Shown: positions 26,991 through 34,153 of the stretch, one piece after another
Numbering within the stretch: the first letter of the stretch is position 1
Layout of the letters: the number at the start of each line of letters is the position of its first letter
Assembly: GCF_900094585.1 (NCBI RefSeq)
Contig: NZ_FMAG01000012.1
Span: forward strand, 1-64,000
Direction of reading: 5' to 3'
Origin: Martinezella multihospitum
GTDB taxonomy: Bacteria; Pseudomonadota; Alphaproteobacteria; Rhizobiales; Rhizobiaceae
DNA length: 64,000 nt
Notes under the pieces: generated by a model
What the model was told of the DNA's origin: nothing
The model's database searches: none
The model's input: only the letters and a program-made list of their open reading frames with translations
Translations under genes and position numbers: made by a program

Positions 26991-27035
26991 GGCCGTTTTA
27001 AGGGCGGATAGGAATTCCCAGGCCCAGGCCCGCAA

Positions 27036-27209
27036 TCATCCCTGGTTTGAATTTGCCTGCTGTCGCTGCCGTGGCTTGAATTCGAGGACGACGGCTTCAA
27101 GGGCTACCTGCCGCTTTTCCTTGCCGCGTGCTCTTGCCGCGCTGGCGAGCGCGTAGAAAGTCGTGCCGATGAGCACGAGTGCTGCAATGCTTGCGATGAT
27201 TGCGGCCAT
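27036..27209 (-). CDS. Small single-pass membrane protein (57 aa)
   Basis: Unrecognised 57-residue protein. Residues 2-20 (MAAIIASIAALVLIGTTFY) form one hydrophobic helix, followed by a basic cytoplasm-type tail (ARARGKEKRQ) and a hydrophilic end rich in Q, R and N. The ATG at 27209 has AAAGGA 8 bases upstream. Part of a run of three small minus-strand genes for envelope proteins. Function unknown. Confidence 0.65.
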   Translation of the reverse strand: MAAIIASIAALVLIGTTFYALASAARARGKEKRQVALEAVVLEFKPRQRQQANSNQG

Positions 27210-27358
27210 GATGCCGTTCCTTTCTCAAAACACTGCTACCTTCCCGCGGCCGATGGCGCGGGAAAGAGATTTTCCTGAAGGAACTGTCGTTCCGTGAGTT
27301 TGTTTCAAGAACGGGTCCTGACCGCCCATCAAAAACGATCGGTCAGGTGATGCCGGCT

Positions 27359-27613
27359 TTAGCGGCAGCGAGCTTCATAACGGCGACCATAGCGGTCGCG
27401 GTAGATGCAATAGCCGCGACGATCTTCCGAACGTCCGATGAGGTTGCCGACCACGCCGCCAGCGACTGCGCCGACAGCAGCGCCACCCCAGCTATGCGTG
27501 GCTACGCCGCCGATCAGCGCGCCTGTACCGGCGCCGATGGCCGTGCCTTTTTCCGTTGACGTGCACGATGCCAATGCGCCGAGGAGGGCGATCGCGACGA
27601 TGATCTTCTTCAT
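27359..27613 (-). CDS. Glycine-zipper lipoprotein
   Basis: 84 aa. Signal peptide MKKIIVAIALLGALAS with lipobox LASC (lipidated Cys at 17), then a glycine-zipper segment (GTAIGAGTGALIGGV... GAAVGAVAGGVVGNLIG) and a basic, Tyr/Arg-rich tail YCIYRDRYGRRYEARCR. It resembles small outer-membrane YMGG/SlyB-type glycine-zipper lipoproteins often linked to envelope stress. Starts after GGGAGC. Confidence 0.8.
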   Translation of the reverse strand: MKKIIVAIALLGALASCTSTEKGTAIGAGTGALIGGVATHSWGGAAVGAVAGGVVGNLIGRSEDRRGYCIYRDRYGRRYEARCR

Positions 27614-27659
27614 GGTGTTAGCTCCCTAGTGTTGCGAGGTTTTGACAATAACCTGCGGA

Positions 27660-27815
27660 TCAGATCCGCCCCATCAATAACAGAATGAGGACAATGACGA
27701 GAACAAGCCCGAGACCACCCGATGGGCCATACCCCCATGCCCGGCTGTAACCCCAGCTGGGTAGTGCGCCGATCAGCAGCAGAATCAGTATCACAAGCAA
27801 TACCGTACCAAGCAT
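27660..27815 (-). CDS. DUF3309 small membrane protein
   Basis: 51 aa beginning MLGTVLLVILILLLIGALPS, then WGYSRAWGYGPSGGLGL and a second hydrophobic helix ending LLLMGRI: the DUF3309 pattern of two helices around a WGYGPSGG loop. Preceded by GGAGGAGAC on the minus strand, a strong ribosome site that decides the start at 27815 over an in-frame ATG at 27944. An EcfG-like promoter lies about 130 bases upstream. Function unknown; the family is often reported with stress genes. Confidence 0.85.
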   Translation of the reverse strand: MLGTVLLVILILLLIGALPSWGYSRAWGYGPSGGLGLVLVIVLILLLMGRI

Positions 27816-27947
27816 GATGTGTCTCCTCCATGTCCATCGCTTGAATATCCCGCCGATATCGCTTTCCGATCCGGCGTTATCCTTCCAGCGCTCCAGCTCA
27901 AATCTGCTTCCAGGGAATGGGCTGAGTTCCTCAATTCTGTTCATAGA

Positions 27948-27972
27948 AACTTGCGTGCTCGATAATTGTTCC
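27948..27972 (-). promoter_or_regulatory. Possible EcfG (general stress) promoter
   Basis: Minus strand reads GGAAC, 16 bases, then AGTT. The alphaproteobacterial EcfG/RpoE2 consensus is GGAAC-N16-17-CGTT, so there is one mismatch in the -10 box. It would drive the DUF3309 gene with a leader of about 125 bases. Confidence 0.45.
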
Positions 27973-28114
27973 GGCTAAGAAATAAAAATGCGAGTGCGCA
28001 GTGGCCCGGATTTTCAGGGAAACGTTAATGCGATGACATCGTGTGACGGTTGCGGGAACGACGGGAGACCTGCTCGTATGGTTAAAATATGATTAAAATA
28101 CAATGGGTTGTGGT

Positions 28115-28163
28115 GAACGAAACGGGAAAGGCCTGATGTCTGTGATTCGTCGGCGATTCGTTC
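28115..28163 (+). repeat. 49-bp unit, copy 1
   Basis: Begins GAACGAAACGGGAAAG and ends GATTCGTCGGCGATTCGTTC, with the two blocks exactly 29 bases apart. The outer GAACGAA and TTCGTTC are a perfect inverted repeat. Followed after 16 bases by GTTAACG. Confidence 0.8.
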
Positions 28164-28367
28164 TCTATTTGGACTTGGGTTAACGGCGAGGCTCCTCAGG
28201 CGCGCCGTCAGCGGCGCCGGAAGGGCGAAGCAGAACCACAGGCGGATCGCGTAGATGGTGTTTTCGTCGGCCGATCGGTTAATTTGCGGCAGGCCTGCGG
28301 GCGGCTCGTTCATTCATGGCAGTGCTATTTCGCGATCCTGTTCCGACGAAATACAACATGTAGCCGT

Positions 28368-28416
28368 GAACAAATACGATACCTGCCCCTATCCGCGATT
28401 CGTCACCGATTCGTTC
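28368..28416 (+). repeat. 49-bp unit, copy 2
   Basis: GAACAAATACGATAC, then GATTCGTCACCGATTCGTTC at the same 29-base offset. Preceded by ATGTAGCCGT and followed by GTGTTAATGG, both with counterparts at other copies. Confidence 0.85.
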
Positions 28417-28583
28417 CGGGTTTGATCGATGTGTTAATGGCTGCACCTTTTGCGTGTATTTGTCGATTCATTATAGCTGCGCTCGCTAAAAGATTAATCA
28501 CAATCGCAGATTCGACCGGAATCCGGCTCTCAACCATTCAGAGTCCGGTGTGTCCTTGCTGCGGAAACGCTAGATGTTGTGGA

Positions 28584-28632
28584 GAACAAAAACGGAATCG
28601 CTTGGAATCTGCGATTCGTCGCCGATTCGTTC
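28584..28632 (+). repeat. 49-bp unit, copy 3
   Basis: GAACAAAAACGGAATCGC, then GATTCGTCGCCGATTCGTTC at the 29-base offset. Four GANTC sites in this copy. GAATCGC and GCGATTC form a perfect 7-bp stem inside it. Followed by GATGTTAACGCC. Confidence 0.85.
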
Positions 28633-28827
28633 CGGCTTTGGCCTGGATGTTAACGCCGTCGGCTGATTCATGGGAAACTTCATTATTTACAGATCATTAA
28701 CCATGATACGACGCGAAATTTCGCTGGCTGAGGATTCTCCGCTTGACTCCTTTTGCCTTGGAAAAGCTGCGCAAACAGGATTCAGCATTTGGTGGGAATC
28801 TTTTCATTGAAATCCATATGTAGTCGT

Positions 28828-28842
28828 GAACAAATAAGGAAC
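28828..28842. promoter_or_regulatory. Possible LexA box (GAAC-N7-GAAC)
   Basis: Exact match to the alphaproteobacterial SOS operator GAAC-N7-GAAC. The same position in copies 1-3 is a decayed form. It lies about 230 bases before the helicase gene at 29073. One box by chance is not rare, so this is tentative. Confidence 0.35.
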
Positions 28843-28876
28843 CCGACGGAGTCAGCGATTCGTCTCCGATTCGTTC
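28828..28876 (+). repeat. 49-bp unit, copy 4
   Basis: GAACAAATAAGGAAC, then GATTCGTCTCCGATTCGTTC at the 29-base offset. Preceded by ATGTAGTCGT as in copy 2. The left block is a perfect GAAC-N7-GAAC sequence. Confidence 0.85.
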
Positions 28877-29072
28877 TCAAGCTGTTCCGGAATCGCCGGG
28901 ACTCGCATGGGGTGCAGCCAAAATGTAGCTTGTGGTTGAAGCGATCAAATATGAAATCGATTGTTGCTTTATCTGTTTTTTCATTCGGGTCTTGCCTTTG
29001 TCACATATGGTCGTCATCTGTTCGTTTCCTCCAAGAGGAACATGCTGATCGGAAGACGGTAGTTTCTCGCCT

Positions 29073-32000
29073 ATGCACGGACCTATGACTCAGACTTCGC
29101 AGCCCATGATCCTGAGCGGACGCGGCGTGACCGCGGTGCTCGGACCGACCAATACCGGCAAAACCCATTATGCCATCGAGCGCATGGTGGCACACGGCAG
29201 CGGCGTGATCGGCCTGCCGTTGCGGCTGCTTGCCCGCGAGGTCTATACGCGCGTCGTCGAAAAGGTCGGGGCGCACAATGTCGCGCTCGTGACCGGCGAG
29301 GAAAAGATATCGCCGCCCAATGCGCGTTATTCGGTCTGCACCGTCGAGGCCATGCCGCGCGAGACACGCGCCTCCTTCGTCGCCATCGACGAGGTGCAGC
29401 TTGCCGGCGATCTTGAGCGGGGTCATATCTTCACCGACCGTATCCTGCATCTGCGCGGGCGCGATGAAACCCTGCTGCTTGGCGCGGGTACCATGCGGCC
29501 GATCCTCGAGCAGCTTCTGCCTGGTATTACCGTTCTGGAGCGGCCGCGGCTTTCCCATCTTTTCTATGCTGGGCAGAAAAAGATCACCCGGCTGCCGCAG
29601 CGCACCGCGATCGTCGCTTTTTCCGCCGACGAGGTTTACGGGATCGCGGAGCTTATCCGCCGTCAGCGCGGCGGCGCGGCCGTCGTTCTCGGAGCGCTCA
29701 GCCCGCGCACCCGCAATGCGCAGGTCGCGCTCTACCAGGCCGGCGATGTTGAATATCTGGTTGCCACCGATGCGATCGGCATGGGCCTCAATCTCGATGT
29801 CGATCACGTCGCCTTCGCCCAGGATCGCAAGTTCGACGGCTATCAGTTCCGCAATCTTAATCCGGCCGAGCTCGGCCAGATCGCCGGTCGCGCCGGCCGC
29901 CATCTCAAGGACGGCACGTTCGGCGTGACAGGGCAGGTGGATCCCTTCGACGACGAACTCGTGCGCCGGATCGAGGGACACGAATTCGACATGGTCAAGG
30001 TGCTGCAATGGCGCACCAAGGATCTGGATTTTGCTTCGATTGCGGCGTTGCGTGCAAGTTTGGAAGACGCGCCTCGCGTGCAGGGCTTGACGCGGGCGCT
30101 GCCTGCGGTAGACCAGCAGGCGTTGGAATATCTGTCACGCGATCTGGAGATAGTCGATCTTGCCAGCAACCCGGCTCGGGTTGAGAAATTATGGGAGGCC
30201 TGTGCGCTTCCAGACTATCGGCGCATTACGCCTGCCCAGCACGCCGATCTCATTGCCGCCCTCTTTTCCGACCTTGTGCGCTATGGCACGGTGAAGGAGG
30301 AATTTCTTGCCGAACAGGTGCATCGCGCCGATCGGACGGATGGCGAGATCGACACGCTTTCGGCGCGAATCGCGCAGATAAGGACTTGGACCTATGTGTC
30401 GAACCGGCCCGGCTGGCTTGCCGATCCGACACACTGGCAAGAAAAGACGCGGGAAATCGAAGATCGATTGTCCGACGCGTTACATGAGAGGTTGACGAAA
30501 CGCTTTGTTGATCGCAGGACATCTGTGCTCATGAAGCGCCTGAGAGAGAATGCGATGCTGGAAGCTGAAATCAGTGTGAATGGAGATGTCTTCGTTGAGG
30601 GACATCATGTGGGACAGTTGACCGGATTCCGGTTCACGCCTATCGCAGGGACCGAAGGCCCGGATGCCAAGGCTGTCCAGACGGCCTCGCAGAAGGCGCT
30701 GGCGCTGGAATTCGAGGCACGTGCCGCACGCATGCATGCGGCCGGCAACGGCGATCTCGCGATCAGCGCCGATGGCCTGGTGCGTTGGCTCGGCGATCCC
30801 GTGGCGCGGCTTTCGGGCAGCGATCACGTCATGCGTCCGCGCGTCATCCTGCTCGCCGACGAGCAGCTGACGGGCAATGCGCGCGATCATGTCGCGGCGC
30901 GTATCGAGCGCTTTGTGAACCACCACATCAGCACGATCCTGAAGCCGCTGGACGATCTGCAGCGCGCTGAGGATCTGCAGGGCCTTGCCAAGGGGCTGGC
31001 CTTCCAGCTGGTGGAAAACCTCGGCGTTCTGTTCCGCCGCGACGTCACGGAAGAAGTGAAGTCGCTGGATCAGGATGGGCGCGCCTCCATGCGCCGCTAC
31101 GGCGTTCGCTTCGGCGCCTACCATATTTTCGTGCCCGCGCTTCTGAAGCCGGCTCCGGCCGAACTCATCACGCTGCTCTGGGCGCTGAAGAATGATGGTC
31201 TCGACAAGCCGGGCTATGGCGATCTGATCCCGGTTCTTGCTGCCGGCCGCACCTCGGTCGTCACCGATCCGGGCTATGAGCGCACGTTCTACAAGCTTGC
31301 GGGCTTCCGGTTCCTCGGCAAGCGCGCGGTGCGTATCGATATTCTGGAGCGCCTGGCGGACCTCATTCGTCCGCTGCTGCAGTGGAAGCCCGGCCAGGCT
31401 TCGCGCCCCGACGGCGCCTATGACGGCCGTCGCTTCACGACGACGACTGCGATGCTCTCCATCCTCGGCGCGACGCTTGAGGACATGGAAGAAATCCTCA
31501 AGGGCCTCGGTTATCGCGCCGATGCGGTGAAGGCGGAGGAGGCCACGGCCTTCCTCGCTCAGCAGGATGCGGCCGCAGCACCAGCGGCACCGGCAGCTGA
31601 CGCCGTTGCCGAAAAAGCCGATCATGACGATGCCGATGGTTCGAGCGACGAGCCGGCTAAGGAAACGGAAGCCGTTGCGCAGGAAGCAGCTCCGGCTGCG
31701 GATGTCTCGGCTGAATCGGTTGCCGTGGCGACTGAGGTTGCCGAGGCTACCGAAGCTGGAGCCGTTGTCGCGGAAGCGGCTGAGCCCAAGCCGGTTCTGC
31801 TTTGGCGTCTGGGTGGTCGAAGCGACCATCAGCAGCGCCAGGGCGGTCGTGGCCATGGTGATCGTCGCGGCCAGCAGGGCGAAGGCCGTGGTCAGCACGG
31901 CAATCGCCGTGGCGGTGGCGAGCAGGCAGCCGGCGAAGGCAATCGCGAGGGTGGTCGTGATCGTCGCGATGGGCGCGACAATCGTGAAGCTCGCGGCGGC

Positions 32001-32228
32001 GACAACAAGGGTCCGCGCGGCAATCGCGAAGGTGGCCGTCCCCAGCATCAGGGCAATCGCGGCGAACGGGGTGATCGTCAGGAGCGCGGTGAGCGGAACG
32101 ATCGCAACAATCGCGGCGCGTCGCAGCCGTTGCGTTTCGAAGCCAAGCCGCCGCGCAAGGAAAAGCCGATCGATCCGGATTCTCCTTTCGCAAAGCTTGC
32201 TGCCCTCAAGGAGCAGATGAAGAAATAG
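29073..32228 (+). CDS. mgpS: SUV3-like ATP-dependent RNA helicase (MgpS-type)
   Basis: 1051 aa superfamily 2 helicase. The first 330 residues hold the motor: Walker A GPTNTGKTH (about 24-32), motif II AIDEVQLA (DEVQ rather than DEAD), GAGTMRP, and motif VI QIAGRAGRH, the pattern of mitochondrial SUV3. A middle SUV3-specific part follows (about 330-840). The tail is unusual: an Ala/Glu-rich acidic linker (about 840-930), then about 100 residues rich in R, G, N, Q and H like RGG boxes, ending with a basic segment. Likely an RNA helicase with its own RNA-tethering tail. Start ATG 29073; ATG 29085 is an equal candidate. An S4 protein gene follows 3 bases after the stop. Confidence 0.85.
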   Translation: MHGPMTQTSQPMILSGRGVTAVLGPTNTGKTHYAIERMVAHGSGVIGLPLRLLAREVYTRVVEKVGAHNVALVTGEEKISPPNARYSVCTVEAMPRETRASFVAIDEVQLAGDLERGHIFTDRILHLRGRDETLLLGAGTMRPILEQLLPGITVLERPRLSHLFYAGQKKITRLPQRTAIVAFSADEVYGIAELIRRQRGGAAVVLGALSPRTRNAQVALYQAGDVEYLVATDAIGMGLNLDVDHVAFAQDRKFDGYQFRNLNPAELGQIAGRAGRHLKDGTFGVTGQVDPFDDELVRRIEGHEFDMVKVLQWRTKDLDFASIAALRASLEDAPRVQGLTRALPAVDQQALEYLSRDLEIVDLASNPARVEKLWEACALPDYRRITPAQHADLIAALFSDLVRYGTVKEEFLAEQVHRADRTDGEIDTLSARIAQIRTWTYVSNRPGWLADPTHWQEKTREIEDRLSDALHERLTKRFVDRRTSVLMKRLRENAMLEAEISVNGDVFVEGHHVGQLTGFRFTPIAGTEGPDAKAVQTASQKALALEFEARAARMHAAGNGDLAISADGLVRWLGDPVARLSGSDHVMRPRVILLADEQLTGNARDHVAARIERFVNHHISTILKPLDDLQRAEDLQGLAKGLAFQLVENLGVLFRRDVTEEVKSLDQDGRASMRRYGVRFGAYHIFVPALLKPAPAELITLLWALKNDGLDKPGYGDLIPVLAAGRTSVVTDPGYERTFYKLAGFRFLGKRAVRIDILERLADLIRPLLQWKPGQASRPDGAYDGRRFTTTTAMLSILGATLEDMEEILKGLGYRADAVKAEEATAFLAQQDAAAAPAAPAADAVAEKADHDDADGSSDEPAKETEAVAQEAAPAADVSAESVAVATEVAEATEAGAVVAEAAEPKPVLLWRLGGRSDHQQRQGGRGHGDRRGQQGEGRGQHGNRRGGGEQAAGEGNREGGRDRRDGRDNREARGGDNKGPRGNREGGRPQHQGNRGERGDRQERGERNDRNNRGASQPLRFEAKPPRKEKPIDPDSPFAKLAALKEQMKK

Positions 32229-32231
32229 GTC

Positions 32232-32636
32232 ATGACGGACGAGAAACAGCCATTTTCCGGTTCGCGCCAGCGTATCGACAAATGGCTGTTCTTTGCCCGC
32301 ATGGTGAAATCCCGCTCGCTGGCGCAGCTCTATGTGCAGAACGGCAGCGTCAGGGTGAATGGCGAGCGGGTGGCCCAGCCGAGCTTCGGCGTCAAGGCTG
32401 GCGACCGCATCGAGTTGTCGCTCGAGCGGCGCGACGTCATTCTGATCGTGCGCGCACCCGGCGATCGCAGGGGGCCATTCGAGGAAGCCAAGCTGCTTTA
32501 CGAAGATCTGACGCCGCCCCCGGATGAGACAAAACGTCTCACCCCGTTCGAGCAGGCGTTGCGAGCGCCGGGCAGCGGCAGACCCACGAAACGGGATCGG
32601 CGCGCAATCGACCGCCTCACCTCCGACGACGATTAG
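32232..32636 (+). CDS. S4-domain RNA-binding protein (Hsp15-like)
   Basis: 134 aa with an N-terminal S4 domain (about 13-75: RIDKWLFFARMVKSRSLAQ, GSVRVNGERV, VKAGDRIEL) and a basic C-terminus. HslR/Hsp15 binds stalled 50S subunits carrying peptidyl-tRNA. Starting 3 bases after the helicase stop, it is clearly in its operon, consistent with a shared RNA or ribosome-related job. Confidence 0.85.
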   Translation: MTDEKQPFSGSRQRIDKWLFFARMVKSRSLAQLYVQNGSVRVNGERVAQPSFGVKAGDRIELSLERRDVILIVRAPGDRRGPFEEAKLLYEDLTPPPDETKRLTPFEQALRAPGSGRPTKRDRRAIDRLTSDDD

Positions 32637-32842
32637 AAAACTCTGCCTGTCGCGGGCGGTTTTCAAGATTGTTTGTCCTTGAAATTGGCTGACAAAGTCG
32701 ATACCTCACGATCAACCTGCCGGTAACCCGCCGGACGGCGCGTTTGTGCGTGACGCATTCGTCTGCCCGTTCGGCTCCGTGGAAAGGTGCGACGTTCCAG
32801 GTTGCGCATCCGCGGGAACTAGAGACATTCCTGGAGTGCTTC

Positions 32843-33181
32843 ATGACATATGTCGTGACCGACAATTGCATCCGCTGCAAATACACCGACTGCGTGGAAG
32901 TCTGCCCCGTCGACTGCTTCTACGAAGGCGAGAACTTCCTCGTCATCCATCCCGACGAATGCATCGATTGCGGTGTCTGCGAGCCGGAATGTCCTGCCGA
33001 GGCGATCAAGCCCGATACGGAGCCGGGTCTCGACAAGTGGCTGAAGGTCAATGCGGAATACGCCGCCATCTGGCCGAACATCACGGTCAAGCGCGACCCG
33101 ATGCCGGAAGCCAAGGAAATGGACGGCGAACAGGGTAAATTCGAGAAATATTTCTCGACCAATCCCGGTGCGGGCGACTGA
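32843..33181 (+). CDS. fdxA: Seven-iron ferredoxin FdxA
   Basis: 112 aa. Cysteine sets [14 protein letters not shown] and [12 protein letters not shown] bind one [3Fe-4S] and one [4Fe-4S] cluster, as in the Azotobacter FdI type. Longer C-terminal tail ([10 protein letters not shown]...) is normal for this class. ATG at 32843 with GGAG 8 bases upstream; the frame is open 33 codons further but lacks a ribosome site. Electron carrier, partner unknown. Confidence 0.95.
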
Positions 33182-33580
33182 TCGAAGGTCGTGACAGGCC
33201 GTCGATAAAGGTGTAGTCGATATCGCAGAAAGCGAATCATTGCCGTTGGGCCGCTGGTCGGTCAACGTGGCCATTTTGGCGCGCGTGCAGCAAATTATTG
33301 ATTTCCTCAGATTTTTGTGATAGGTTCCTCACACTGATCCACTGCGGCATTTCGCATGCCCAAAACCATCACGAAAGCAAATCACCAATCCGTACGCGGT
33401 TTCCTTGACATATCAACGTATTGTGTTGTCGGGTCCCGGATCGCGATGGATGGGTTTCTGTTTGCATAAGTCTGGCTGGACCAGGATGAAGTGACCCGAC
33501 GGTACGTCCGTCTCATCCGGGCCTGACTGACCCGGCACCCCGGCCCTAACGGGGCGCGTAACAGGGAGTTTTTGAAAAGA
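33182..33580. promoter_or_regulatory. carD upstream region
   Basis: About 400 gene-free bases. A TTGACA at 33405 is the best -35 candidate, but no matching -10 box at 16-18 bases is convincing. A CCCCGG-CCCTAA-CGGGGCG hairpin lies near 33538-33556, just before the AGGGAG ribosome site. A long leader is possible. Confidence 0.4.
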
Positions 33581-34153
33581 ATGACGACCCAGCAGAAAAA
33601 ACCTTCAGCAGCACGCCACGGCTTCAAGACTGGTGAAGCGATCGTTTATCCGGCCCATGGTGTCGGCACGATCACTGCGATCGAAGAACAAGAAGTCGCA
33701 GGCATGAAGCTCGAGCTGTTCGTAATCGACTTCGAGAAAGACAAGATGCGTCTGAAGGTGCCGGTGGCCAAGGCCATGAGTATCGGCATGCGCAAGCTTT
33801 CCGAGACGGATTTCGTCGAGCGTGCATTGAAGGTCGTGCAGGGCAAGGCCCGCGTGAAGCGCACCATGTGGTCGCGCCGCGCGCAGGAATACGATGCCAA
33901 GATCAATTCCGGCGATCTGATCTCGATCGCGGAGGTCGTTCGCGATCTCTATCGCGCCGAGAACCAGCCGGAGCAATCCTATTCCGAACGCCAGCTTTAC
34001 GAAGCTGCTCTTGATCGCATGGCGCGCGAAATTGCCGCCGTCAACAAGATGTCGGAAACCGAAGCCGTTCGCCTTGTCGAGACCAATCTGAACAAAGGCC
34101 CGAAGCGCGGCAAAGTCGTCGACGACGACGACTCGCAGGACGAAGCCGCATAA
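33581..34153 (+). CDS. CarD-family transcription regulator
   Basis: 190 aa. N-terminal RNA-polymerase-interaction domain (FKTGEAIVYPAHGVGTITAIE, about 15-70) and a helical C-terminal DNA-binding part (about 75-165), ending in an acidic tail DDDDSQDEAA. CarD proteins bind the RNAP beta subunit and stabilise open promoter complexes, notably at rRNA promoters. ATG at 33581 gives the usual N-terminus MTTQQKK; a TTG at 33572 is closer to AGGGAG and cannot be excluded. Confidence 0.92.
   Translation: MTTQQKKPSAARHGFKTGEAIVYPAHGVGTITAIEEQEVAGMKLELFVIDFEKDKMRLKVPVAKAMSIGMRKLSETDFVERALKVVQGKARVKRTMWSRRAQEYDAKINSGDLISIAEVVRDLYRAENQPEQSYSERQLYEAALDRMAREIAAVNKMSETEAVRLVETNLNKGPKRGKVVDDDDSQDEAA

Follow-up and report, generated by a model that had tools for sequence, protein, structure and literature searches.

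The GATC cluster of the Escherichia coli oriC/SeqA system consists of dense methylation sites with near-helical spacing. Also close to the locus described here are the alphaproteobacterial promoters under CcrM/GcrA control, such as ctrA P1 and mipZ, with GANTC upstream. The extended motif YGAKTCG has been tied to GcrA activation in C. crescentus, and, apart from slightly preferring C, GcrA of B. subvibrioides did not favour an extended motif, as far as the accessible text of PMC7987155 goes. In vitro, GcrA of both S. meliloti and Brucella binds methylated GANTC, that of S. meliloti binding the methylated form better, and the known C. crescentus GcrA targets have on average 1.78 GANTC per 1-kb peak-centred window (both from the available part of PMC3667746), as against 22 in 761 bp here. 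Several GANTC per control region are also found in repABC origin modules, an Agrobacterium repABC/ori2 module having them arranged three plus three plus three (excerpt of PMC11514494). Like the CcrM/GcrA promoters, the present array has GANTC upstream and YGAKTCG, and its genome encodes a CcrM-type methylase and GcrA; unlike them, it is built of a four-copy repeated unit, with an ancestor common to several orders. It shares with repABC modules the multiple GANTC, but has more sites and a chromosomal helicase context, and no repABC genes were seen nearby. It resembles alphaproteobacterial LexA operators in its direct repeat with 11-bp period, present in both orientations in the proximal unit, and differs from them in its GATTCG core, in its GANTC conservation and in a distal GTTC-N7-GRYC followed by TTAA. 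No description of the array itself was found in the literature searched, which was largely open-access.

The window, that is, the whole 64,000-nt stretch of DNA analysed (60.8% G+C), contains 104 GANTC, of which 22 lie at 28144-28900, within an array spanning 28144-28904 to which no strand is assigned. The sequence-only reading had picked out this cluster, and it stands: in 2000 shuffles of 28144-28904 that kept dinucleotides, the mean was 5.1 GANTC and the maximum 13. Among all 16 classes of NNxNN palindrome, counted over 28001-29072, GANTC ranks first with 22, followed by CGNCG with 16. The genome-wide ranking of GANTC density that had been suggested was run on 1,590,252 bases (1.59 Mb, 22%) of the same genome, where the mean was 1.43 per kb, the densest other 761 bp held 8 sites and the maximum among 2067 tiles was 7; an 800 kb sample, half from this genome and half from its relative G041, also reached at most 7 per 761 bp. 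Published Ensifer genomes have 0.90-1.83 GANTC per kb (PMC8725594, in the part available), and a warning that pentanucleotide biases can have other causes is found in the text seen of PMC3973325. Within the 22% of its own genome covered, the array is an extreme GANTC outlier; the window and the 1.59 Mb together hold one such cluster, the densest of all CcrM-site clusters there.

The array is composed of four direct unit copies on the + strand, with starts 216-253 bp apart, each centred on the core GATTCGTC-NN-CGATTCGTTC. Units 1 to 3 follow a distal-type layout, in which a GTGAAC-type arm is followed by the core, a short spacer and GTTAA. Unit 1 (28107-28184) has a GTGAAC arm, the core GATTCGTCGGCGATTCGTTC at 28144-28163 and then GTTAAC; unit 2 (28358-28437) has its core at 28397-28416 and GTTAA at 28433, and unit 3 (28574-28654) its core at 28613-28632 and GTTAAC at 28649. 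Unit 4 (28779-28904) has the proximal-type layout of GATTCAGCAT, GTGAAC arm, GAGTCAGC, core and GTTC-N7-GTTC: behind GATTCAGCAT come GAAC-N7-GAAC at 28828-28842, GAGTC at 28849, the core at 28857-28876, GTTC-N7-GTTC at 28873-28887, GAATC at 28890 and GACTC at 28900. The four exact cores occur only here, no second copy being present elsewhere in the genome at up to 1 mismatch; allowing up to 3 mismatches brought in 8 scattered sites, all with at least 2, against 2 for a reversed-pattern control. The 20-bp core contains two GATTC, 11 bp apart, and the four cores supply 8 of the 22 GANTC, the remaining 14 lying outside them. The earlier claim that the motif itself is enriched, and not one copied word, therefore holds in part: it is borne out by base swaps in the middle of conserved sites, and it fails for those 8 sites, which are one core in four copies.

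Two further motifs lie in the distal part of the array region. TTAA-N7-TTAA is matched ahead of unit 1 (28082-28096, + strand), and we take it to be a putative CtrA-type full site; in 20 same-genus loci the 1,050 bp preceding the helicase start were taken, and their leading 200 bases contain TTAA-N7-TTAA in 9 loci and TTAA-N7/8-TTAA in 16. The sequence TTAACCAT at 28697-28704 (+ strand), which we regard as a putative CtrA site of the 8-mer type, is seen again in 12 of the 20, at 250-550 bp ahead of the helicase. Inter-unit spacing is loose, because neighbouring units in four Rhizobium and Neorhizobium loci (L121, L093, L149, L151) are ~0.8-1.8 kb apart, compared with 0.2-0.3 kb.

Two open reading frames (138 and 111 aa) run over the array, at 28284-28700 and 28753-29088; they look spurious and repeat the peptide SAIRxRFV, which follows from a shared reading frame of the units. 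Taken at face value, these open frames would make the array a short conserved coding sequence for repeated SAIRxRFV peptides. We rejected this reading and give it next to no credence, since the reading frame is not kept among same-genus loci: the frame around each unit is open for 6 to 186 codons across 20 of them, and the array ORFs have no NCBIfam match at E 0.01.

Unit 4 was set beside 119 proximal units drawn from every locus, and a distal set of 193 units was compiled that also takes in units at unknown or >260 bp distance from a helicase; identical segments were dropped, while the genomes are related and some occur in both collections. In the proximal units GANTC occurs at offsets -61 (34%), -53 (21%), -18 (61%), -8 (90%), 0 and 11 (all), and downstream at 22 (39%), 32/33 (18%/16%) and 43 (19%), so that from offset 0 on the spacing is about one helical turn. 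Conservation of the 14 non-core GANTC was assessed over 20 alignable same-genus loci with our locus as reference. Their outer four bases are conserved at 0.684 versus 0.305 for 883 other 5-mers, a difference whose permutation test treats positions and loci as independent and so gives no strict probability. The middle base varies while GANTC is kept at 28796 (A/C/G/T), 28519 (A/T) and 28890 (A/C), and is constant wherever GANTC is kept at 28509, 28541, 28779 and 28849; the sites at 28465, 28605 and 28665 are poorly kept. Among well-kept 5-mers, three or more middle bases are seen for 11% of GANTC and 10% of the others, and the minor-base share at the middle position is 0.18 for GANTC against 0.074 (9 and 180 sites). 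At offset -61 of the proximal unit, all four middle bases occur across genera. The constant middle bases, the poorly kept sites and the near-equal shares of 11% and 10% speak against selection on GANTC as such; several non-core sites, however, stay GANTC under a changing N, so that selection seems to act on the methylation motif itself.

The array precedes a gene (29073-32228, + strand) for a 1051-aa protein with a SUV3-type DExH domain and a helicase C domain (PF22527 DEXQc_Suv3, 4.3e-26; PF00271, 5.2e-9); it matches SUV3 chains in the PDB (best 1.1e-35) and has no match in NCBIfam. An S4-domain gene (32232-32636, + strand), whose product matches the Hsp15 model below its cut-off only, starts 3 bases past the helicase gene and is likely to share an operon with it. 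Next come syntenic neighbours, a FdxA-type ferredoxin gene (32813-33181, + strand; fdxA is annotated at the same place in NZ_CP072868) and a CarD-family gene (33572-34153, + strand; domain match and annotated records). Annotated records of S. meliloti Ak57 and Rhizobium sp. NLR16a show the same order as the window, acetyl-CoA acetyltransferase, reductase, helicase, S4, ferredoxin, CarD and sigma-32, and the S. meliloti interval upstream of the helicase has 13 GANTC in 695 bp. Going by locus-tag order, the S. meliloti gene is presumably SMc03877 (mgpS). SMc03877 is listed among RNA helicases raised by acid stress in the portion of PMC4941405 at hand, and otherwise little on this helicase was found in the same largely open-access literature.

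The cluster had at first been described as not explained by any gene, a statement that gives way to a link between the element and the SUV3-like helicase gene, seen across the order and also in some orders beyond it. DNA of the array and its flank matches 97 of 100 relatives, the match outside the genus being the helicase gene itself. In the best-matching 30 of 60 same-genus genomes, our own included, the cluster has persisted, all 30 loci having 14-24 GANTC in the 1.2 kb ahead of the helicase start. An exact-core scan of species genomes returned at least 120 stretches (fewer genomes, as NC_008380, NZ_SRUU01000001 and NZ_JABAII010000004 each appear twice), including, among the matches listed, Rhizobium, Mesorhizobium, Brucella, Ochrobactrum, Bartonella, Ensifer, Hoeflea, Martelella and Ahrensia. 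The helicase lies downstream on the same strand in 99 of these at least 120 stretches and on the opposite strand in none; in those 99 the closest unit is 118-445 bp from the helicase start (median 183), and loci with one, two, three and four units within 1.5 kb number 18, 59, 15 and 7. The upstream kilobase contains 3 to 22 GANTC (median 10) in 89 loci among the matches listed. Of the remaining stretches listed, 12 end too soon (L129 included) and 9 were scored as 'other', among which L058 is a scoring miss with the helicase present and L149 is probably cut at the locus end; L112, L135, L153 and L155 are the chance matches dealt with below, and L087, L107 and L156 are true alphaproteobacterial exceptions. 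At order level, where the helicase is present in 192 of 199 genomes, the core at up to 1 mismatch is found in 28 of 199 and in 0 controls: in 19 it lies on the helicase strand less than 1 kb ahead of that gene, in 8 it lies elsewhere, and in one (G230) it could not be placed. Seven of the 8 were checked, and all 7 also score above 0 at the helicase with the matrix described below. At class level, 2 of 289 genomes match, our own and G353, in which one of three core copies is 198 bp ahead of the helicase. Judged from the sequences compared, the array is positioned ahead of the helicase gene and is conserved there.

Several occurrences were noted on the side. A palindromic version, GAACGAATC...GATTCGTTC, stands away from the helicase in Methylopila (L087, ~6111, reverse complement), Chelatococcus (L107, ~3104) and G250 (L219/L237, ~10190), its neighbours by eye being a papain-like amidase ORF in the first two and sdhB-like/pheT-like ORFs in the third. 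Three genomes of one genus (g52; L233, L234 and L235) have a one-mismatch core and TTAAC-like sites ~4 kb or less from GidB-like ORFs (by eye), with a ParA-like ORF nearby in two of the three, that is, a partition region. Plasmid p2 of Sinorhizobium sp. B11 carries a distal-type unit with a TTAA arm and no helicase (L341:6001-6095), the unit having an aldehyde dehydrogenase subunit gene on one side and a LysR gene on the other. In G353, an alphaproteobacterium outside the order, each of the three copies (L253, L254, L255) has three GATTC at exact 11-bp steps. Core matches in two Gammaproteobacteria MAGs, Streptomyces, Sinomonas and Paraburkholderia (L112, L129, L135, L153, L155) were set aside as chance, the GTGAAC arm being absent from their flanks by eye. 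Phage origin was likewise rejected: the sole exact match on a viral contig falls inside a long phage ORF, tape-measure-like by eye, and was taken as chance.

The most economical reading of the array is that of an operator/promoter region for the helicase gene. That this region has been amplified and is sensitive to CcrM methylation belongs to the reading, to which as a whole we assign about an even chance. Its readers would probably be GcrA and a LexA-like regulator binding GTTC-N7-GTTC, and the array probably also controls the S4 gene directly behind the helicase. Eight YGAKTCG sites lie upstream of the helicase, all on the + strand with starts at 28143-28867, and these are the 8 core sites of the four units. 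The genome encodes GcrA (profile match, PF07750, 4.1e-61, at C8) and a CcrM-type methylase (RAMA domain, PF18755, 2.6e-16, at C8); GcrA was not found in G353, an 84%-complete genome that carries the unit. We envisage that an ancient operator unit was multiplied to four copies in this Rhizobium lineage, with extra CcrM sites around it. CcrM would methylate these sites, leaving them fully methylated once it acts late in the cycle and half-methylated after fork passage; the methylation state would alter binding of GcrA and RNA polymerase, and helicase expression would then track the replication cycle. A second protein, bound to direct repeats one helical turn apart (GTTC-N7-GTTC, compare LexA of alphaproteobacteria), could bring in damage or stress, and the CtrA-type sites in the distal part could add a further cell-cycle input. 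Against the operator reading, unit 1 is ~930 bp from the helicase, a long way out if this were a simple promoter, and the unit is found away from the helicase in 8 of the 28 matching order-level genomes and on the Sinorhizobium plasmid. The motif preference of B. subvibrioides GcrA, the missing GcrA in G353 and the scarcity of GTTC-N7-GTTC in the distal set also count against it.

More distant helicase loci were searched with a 40-position scoring matrix built from nearer loci. Upstream of the helicase it scores above 0 in 46 of 54 other order-level regions, picked from the rows listed (45 of 52 distinct ones, as two genomes occur twice, L249/L318 positive and L252/L286 negative; for five, a near-exact unit at the helicase was known beforehand), and in 7 of 28 regions from other orders, taken from the best-scoring class-level rows, always on the coding (+) strand; none of 960 control tiles does so, and none of the 24 end stretches taken from recA loci. 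In the 1.59 Mb sample of our own genome the four units of the window score 45-57 and one unmasked site elsewhere reaches 0.3, so that a score barely above 0 proves nothing by itself; the high scores seen in L348 are masked-base artefacts. The consensus of 48 deep sites, chosen as best matches and including four that score below 0, is roughly GGAACGAA-n-GAATC-n5-GAGTCAGC-GATTCGG-n-TTCGTTC-nnGACTC-GTTCC. Upstream GANTC of the helicase is enriched in the order (6.65 versus 3.89 shuffled in 40 loci; 7.15 versus 4.28 in 13 loci), whereas the class set has none of this enrichment (mean 2.24 versus 3.47 shuffled; 29 loci, one of them from the order). For this reason the operator looks older than the GANTC cluster, which would have been elaborated later and, over the loci compared, reaches its highest density in this genus; since helicase upstream regions outside the order are not GANTC-rich, methylation may likewise be a later addition to the operator.

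The direct repeats allow a different account, in which the unit is a set of LexA boxes (GAAC-N7-GAA and GTTC-N7-GTTC), the GANTC are a by-product of GATTCGTTC-like half-sites and methylation has no role. Both boxes are present in 114 of the 119 proximal units; at the 48 deep sites GTTC-N7-GTTC is exact in 31 and within 1 mismatch in 41, and GAAC-N7-GAA occurs in 28. A perfect GAAC-N7-GAAC box is found upstream of recA in 4 of 12 genomes, that of G078 being identical to the proximal arm of locus L018, and the LexA motif GTTC-N7-GTTC can overlap GANTC, as stated in the part of PMC7987155 available. LexA boxes nevertheless leave unexplained the GANTC outside them that are kept while N changes, as well as the GATTCG core, seen in 47 of the 48 deep sites with a matrix that itself contained GATTCG. 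GTTC-N7-GTTC is mostly absent from the distal set (19 of 193 units), where GTTC-N7-GRYC (124 of 193) and a trailing TTAA (157 of 193) are found, and 8 of the 12 genomes, that of the window among them, have no perfect box at recA. We consider a purely LexA-based unit unlikely.

The sequence-only reading had also suggested a replication- or segregation-linked site. In 17 same-genus genomes a single contig carries both the array and hemE, which we take as the marker of oriC; the distance between them is ~110-160 kb in 16 and 324 kb in the other, G041; our own genome, with array and hemE on two contigs, is outside this count. In other families the distance runs from ~51 kb (G078) and 116 kb (G098) to 553 kb (G086) and 2.3 Mb (G093), so that a near-origin location is common in the genus and not a fixed property of the element. 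On both strands of 28001-29072 there is no TTWTNCACA and no exact TTATCCACA or TGATCCACA (DnaA boxes); one DnaA-box-like word, TTCTCCACA, which is TTATCCACA with one mismatch, overlaps the arm of unit 3 at 28578-28586 on the minus strand. The inconstant hemE distance and the lack of an exact box weaken the suggestion of such a site.

The same data bear on a methylation-dependent sequestration or timing locus of the SeqA/GATC kind, at which phased GANTC near the origin would bind or titrate a half-methylation sensor or mark origin-proximal replication, with the helicase as a passenger. The near-helical spacing, with offsets 0 and 11 in all 119 proximal units, the hemE distance within the genus, the one-mismatch box and the singularity of the cluster in the window and 1.59 Mb of the genome would all fit. 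However, the helicase link outlasts origin proximity in G093 and G086, no exact DnaA box is present, and in 77 of the 99 helicase-linked loci among the matches listed no more than two units lie within 1.5 kb, few for titration. The idea is thereby weakened, and we judge it distinctly improbable. A bolder version, for which we hold equally slender expectations, is a methylation-dependent chromosomal timer of Hyphomicrobiales, in which half-methylated, near-helically spaced GANTC would recruit a SeqA-like factor or a GcrA oligomer after fork passage, the helicase locus serving as a fixed address and the helicase being coupled to replication progress. Although its dense methylation sites and near-helical spacing recall the E. 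coli oriC/SeqA cluster, the array lies off the origin marker, lacks an exact DnaA box, has another methylase motif and is tied to one gene. A SeqA-type reader of half-methylated DNA is encoded in gammaproteobacteria only, according to the text of PMC5172544 that was accessible. Among the ideas of the sequence-only reading, a methylation-sensitive switch appears the likeliest.

Repeated small RNA genes occur in rhizobia, and the unit-wise repeats and strong conservation could also point to tandem small RNA genes or a structured leader RNA. On the + strand, consensus folding of the core does better than column-shuffled controls (z -3.1 for the proximal and -7.7 for the distal set), through one six-pair hairpin in the near-invariant core. 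This hairpin, however, sits in columns that barely vary and so would bring no covariation; folds of 155 bp show no structure in the distal set and only that core hairpin in the proximal set (z -2.1). Rfam gave no match at E up to 1 over 27000-29200, and the distance from unit to start codon ranges from ~90 to 560 bp. An RNA is thus a very improbable explanation.

Read as a methylation-sensitive operator, the array marks a control input for a helicase that is widespread in the order, and it provides a single clean locus for how the GANTC methylation state is read outside Caulobacter. The operator can be traced into several other families and some other orders, and such deep conservation in non-coding DNA is, in our judgement, unusual for bacteria. 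It may link CcrM, CtrA and possibly SOS control to the unwinding of nucleic acids.
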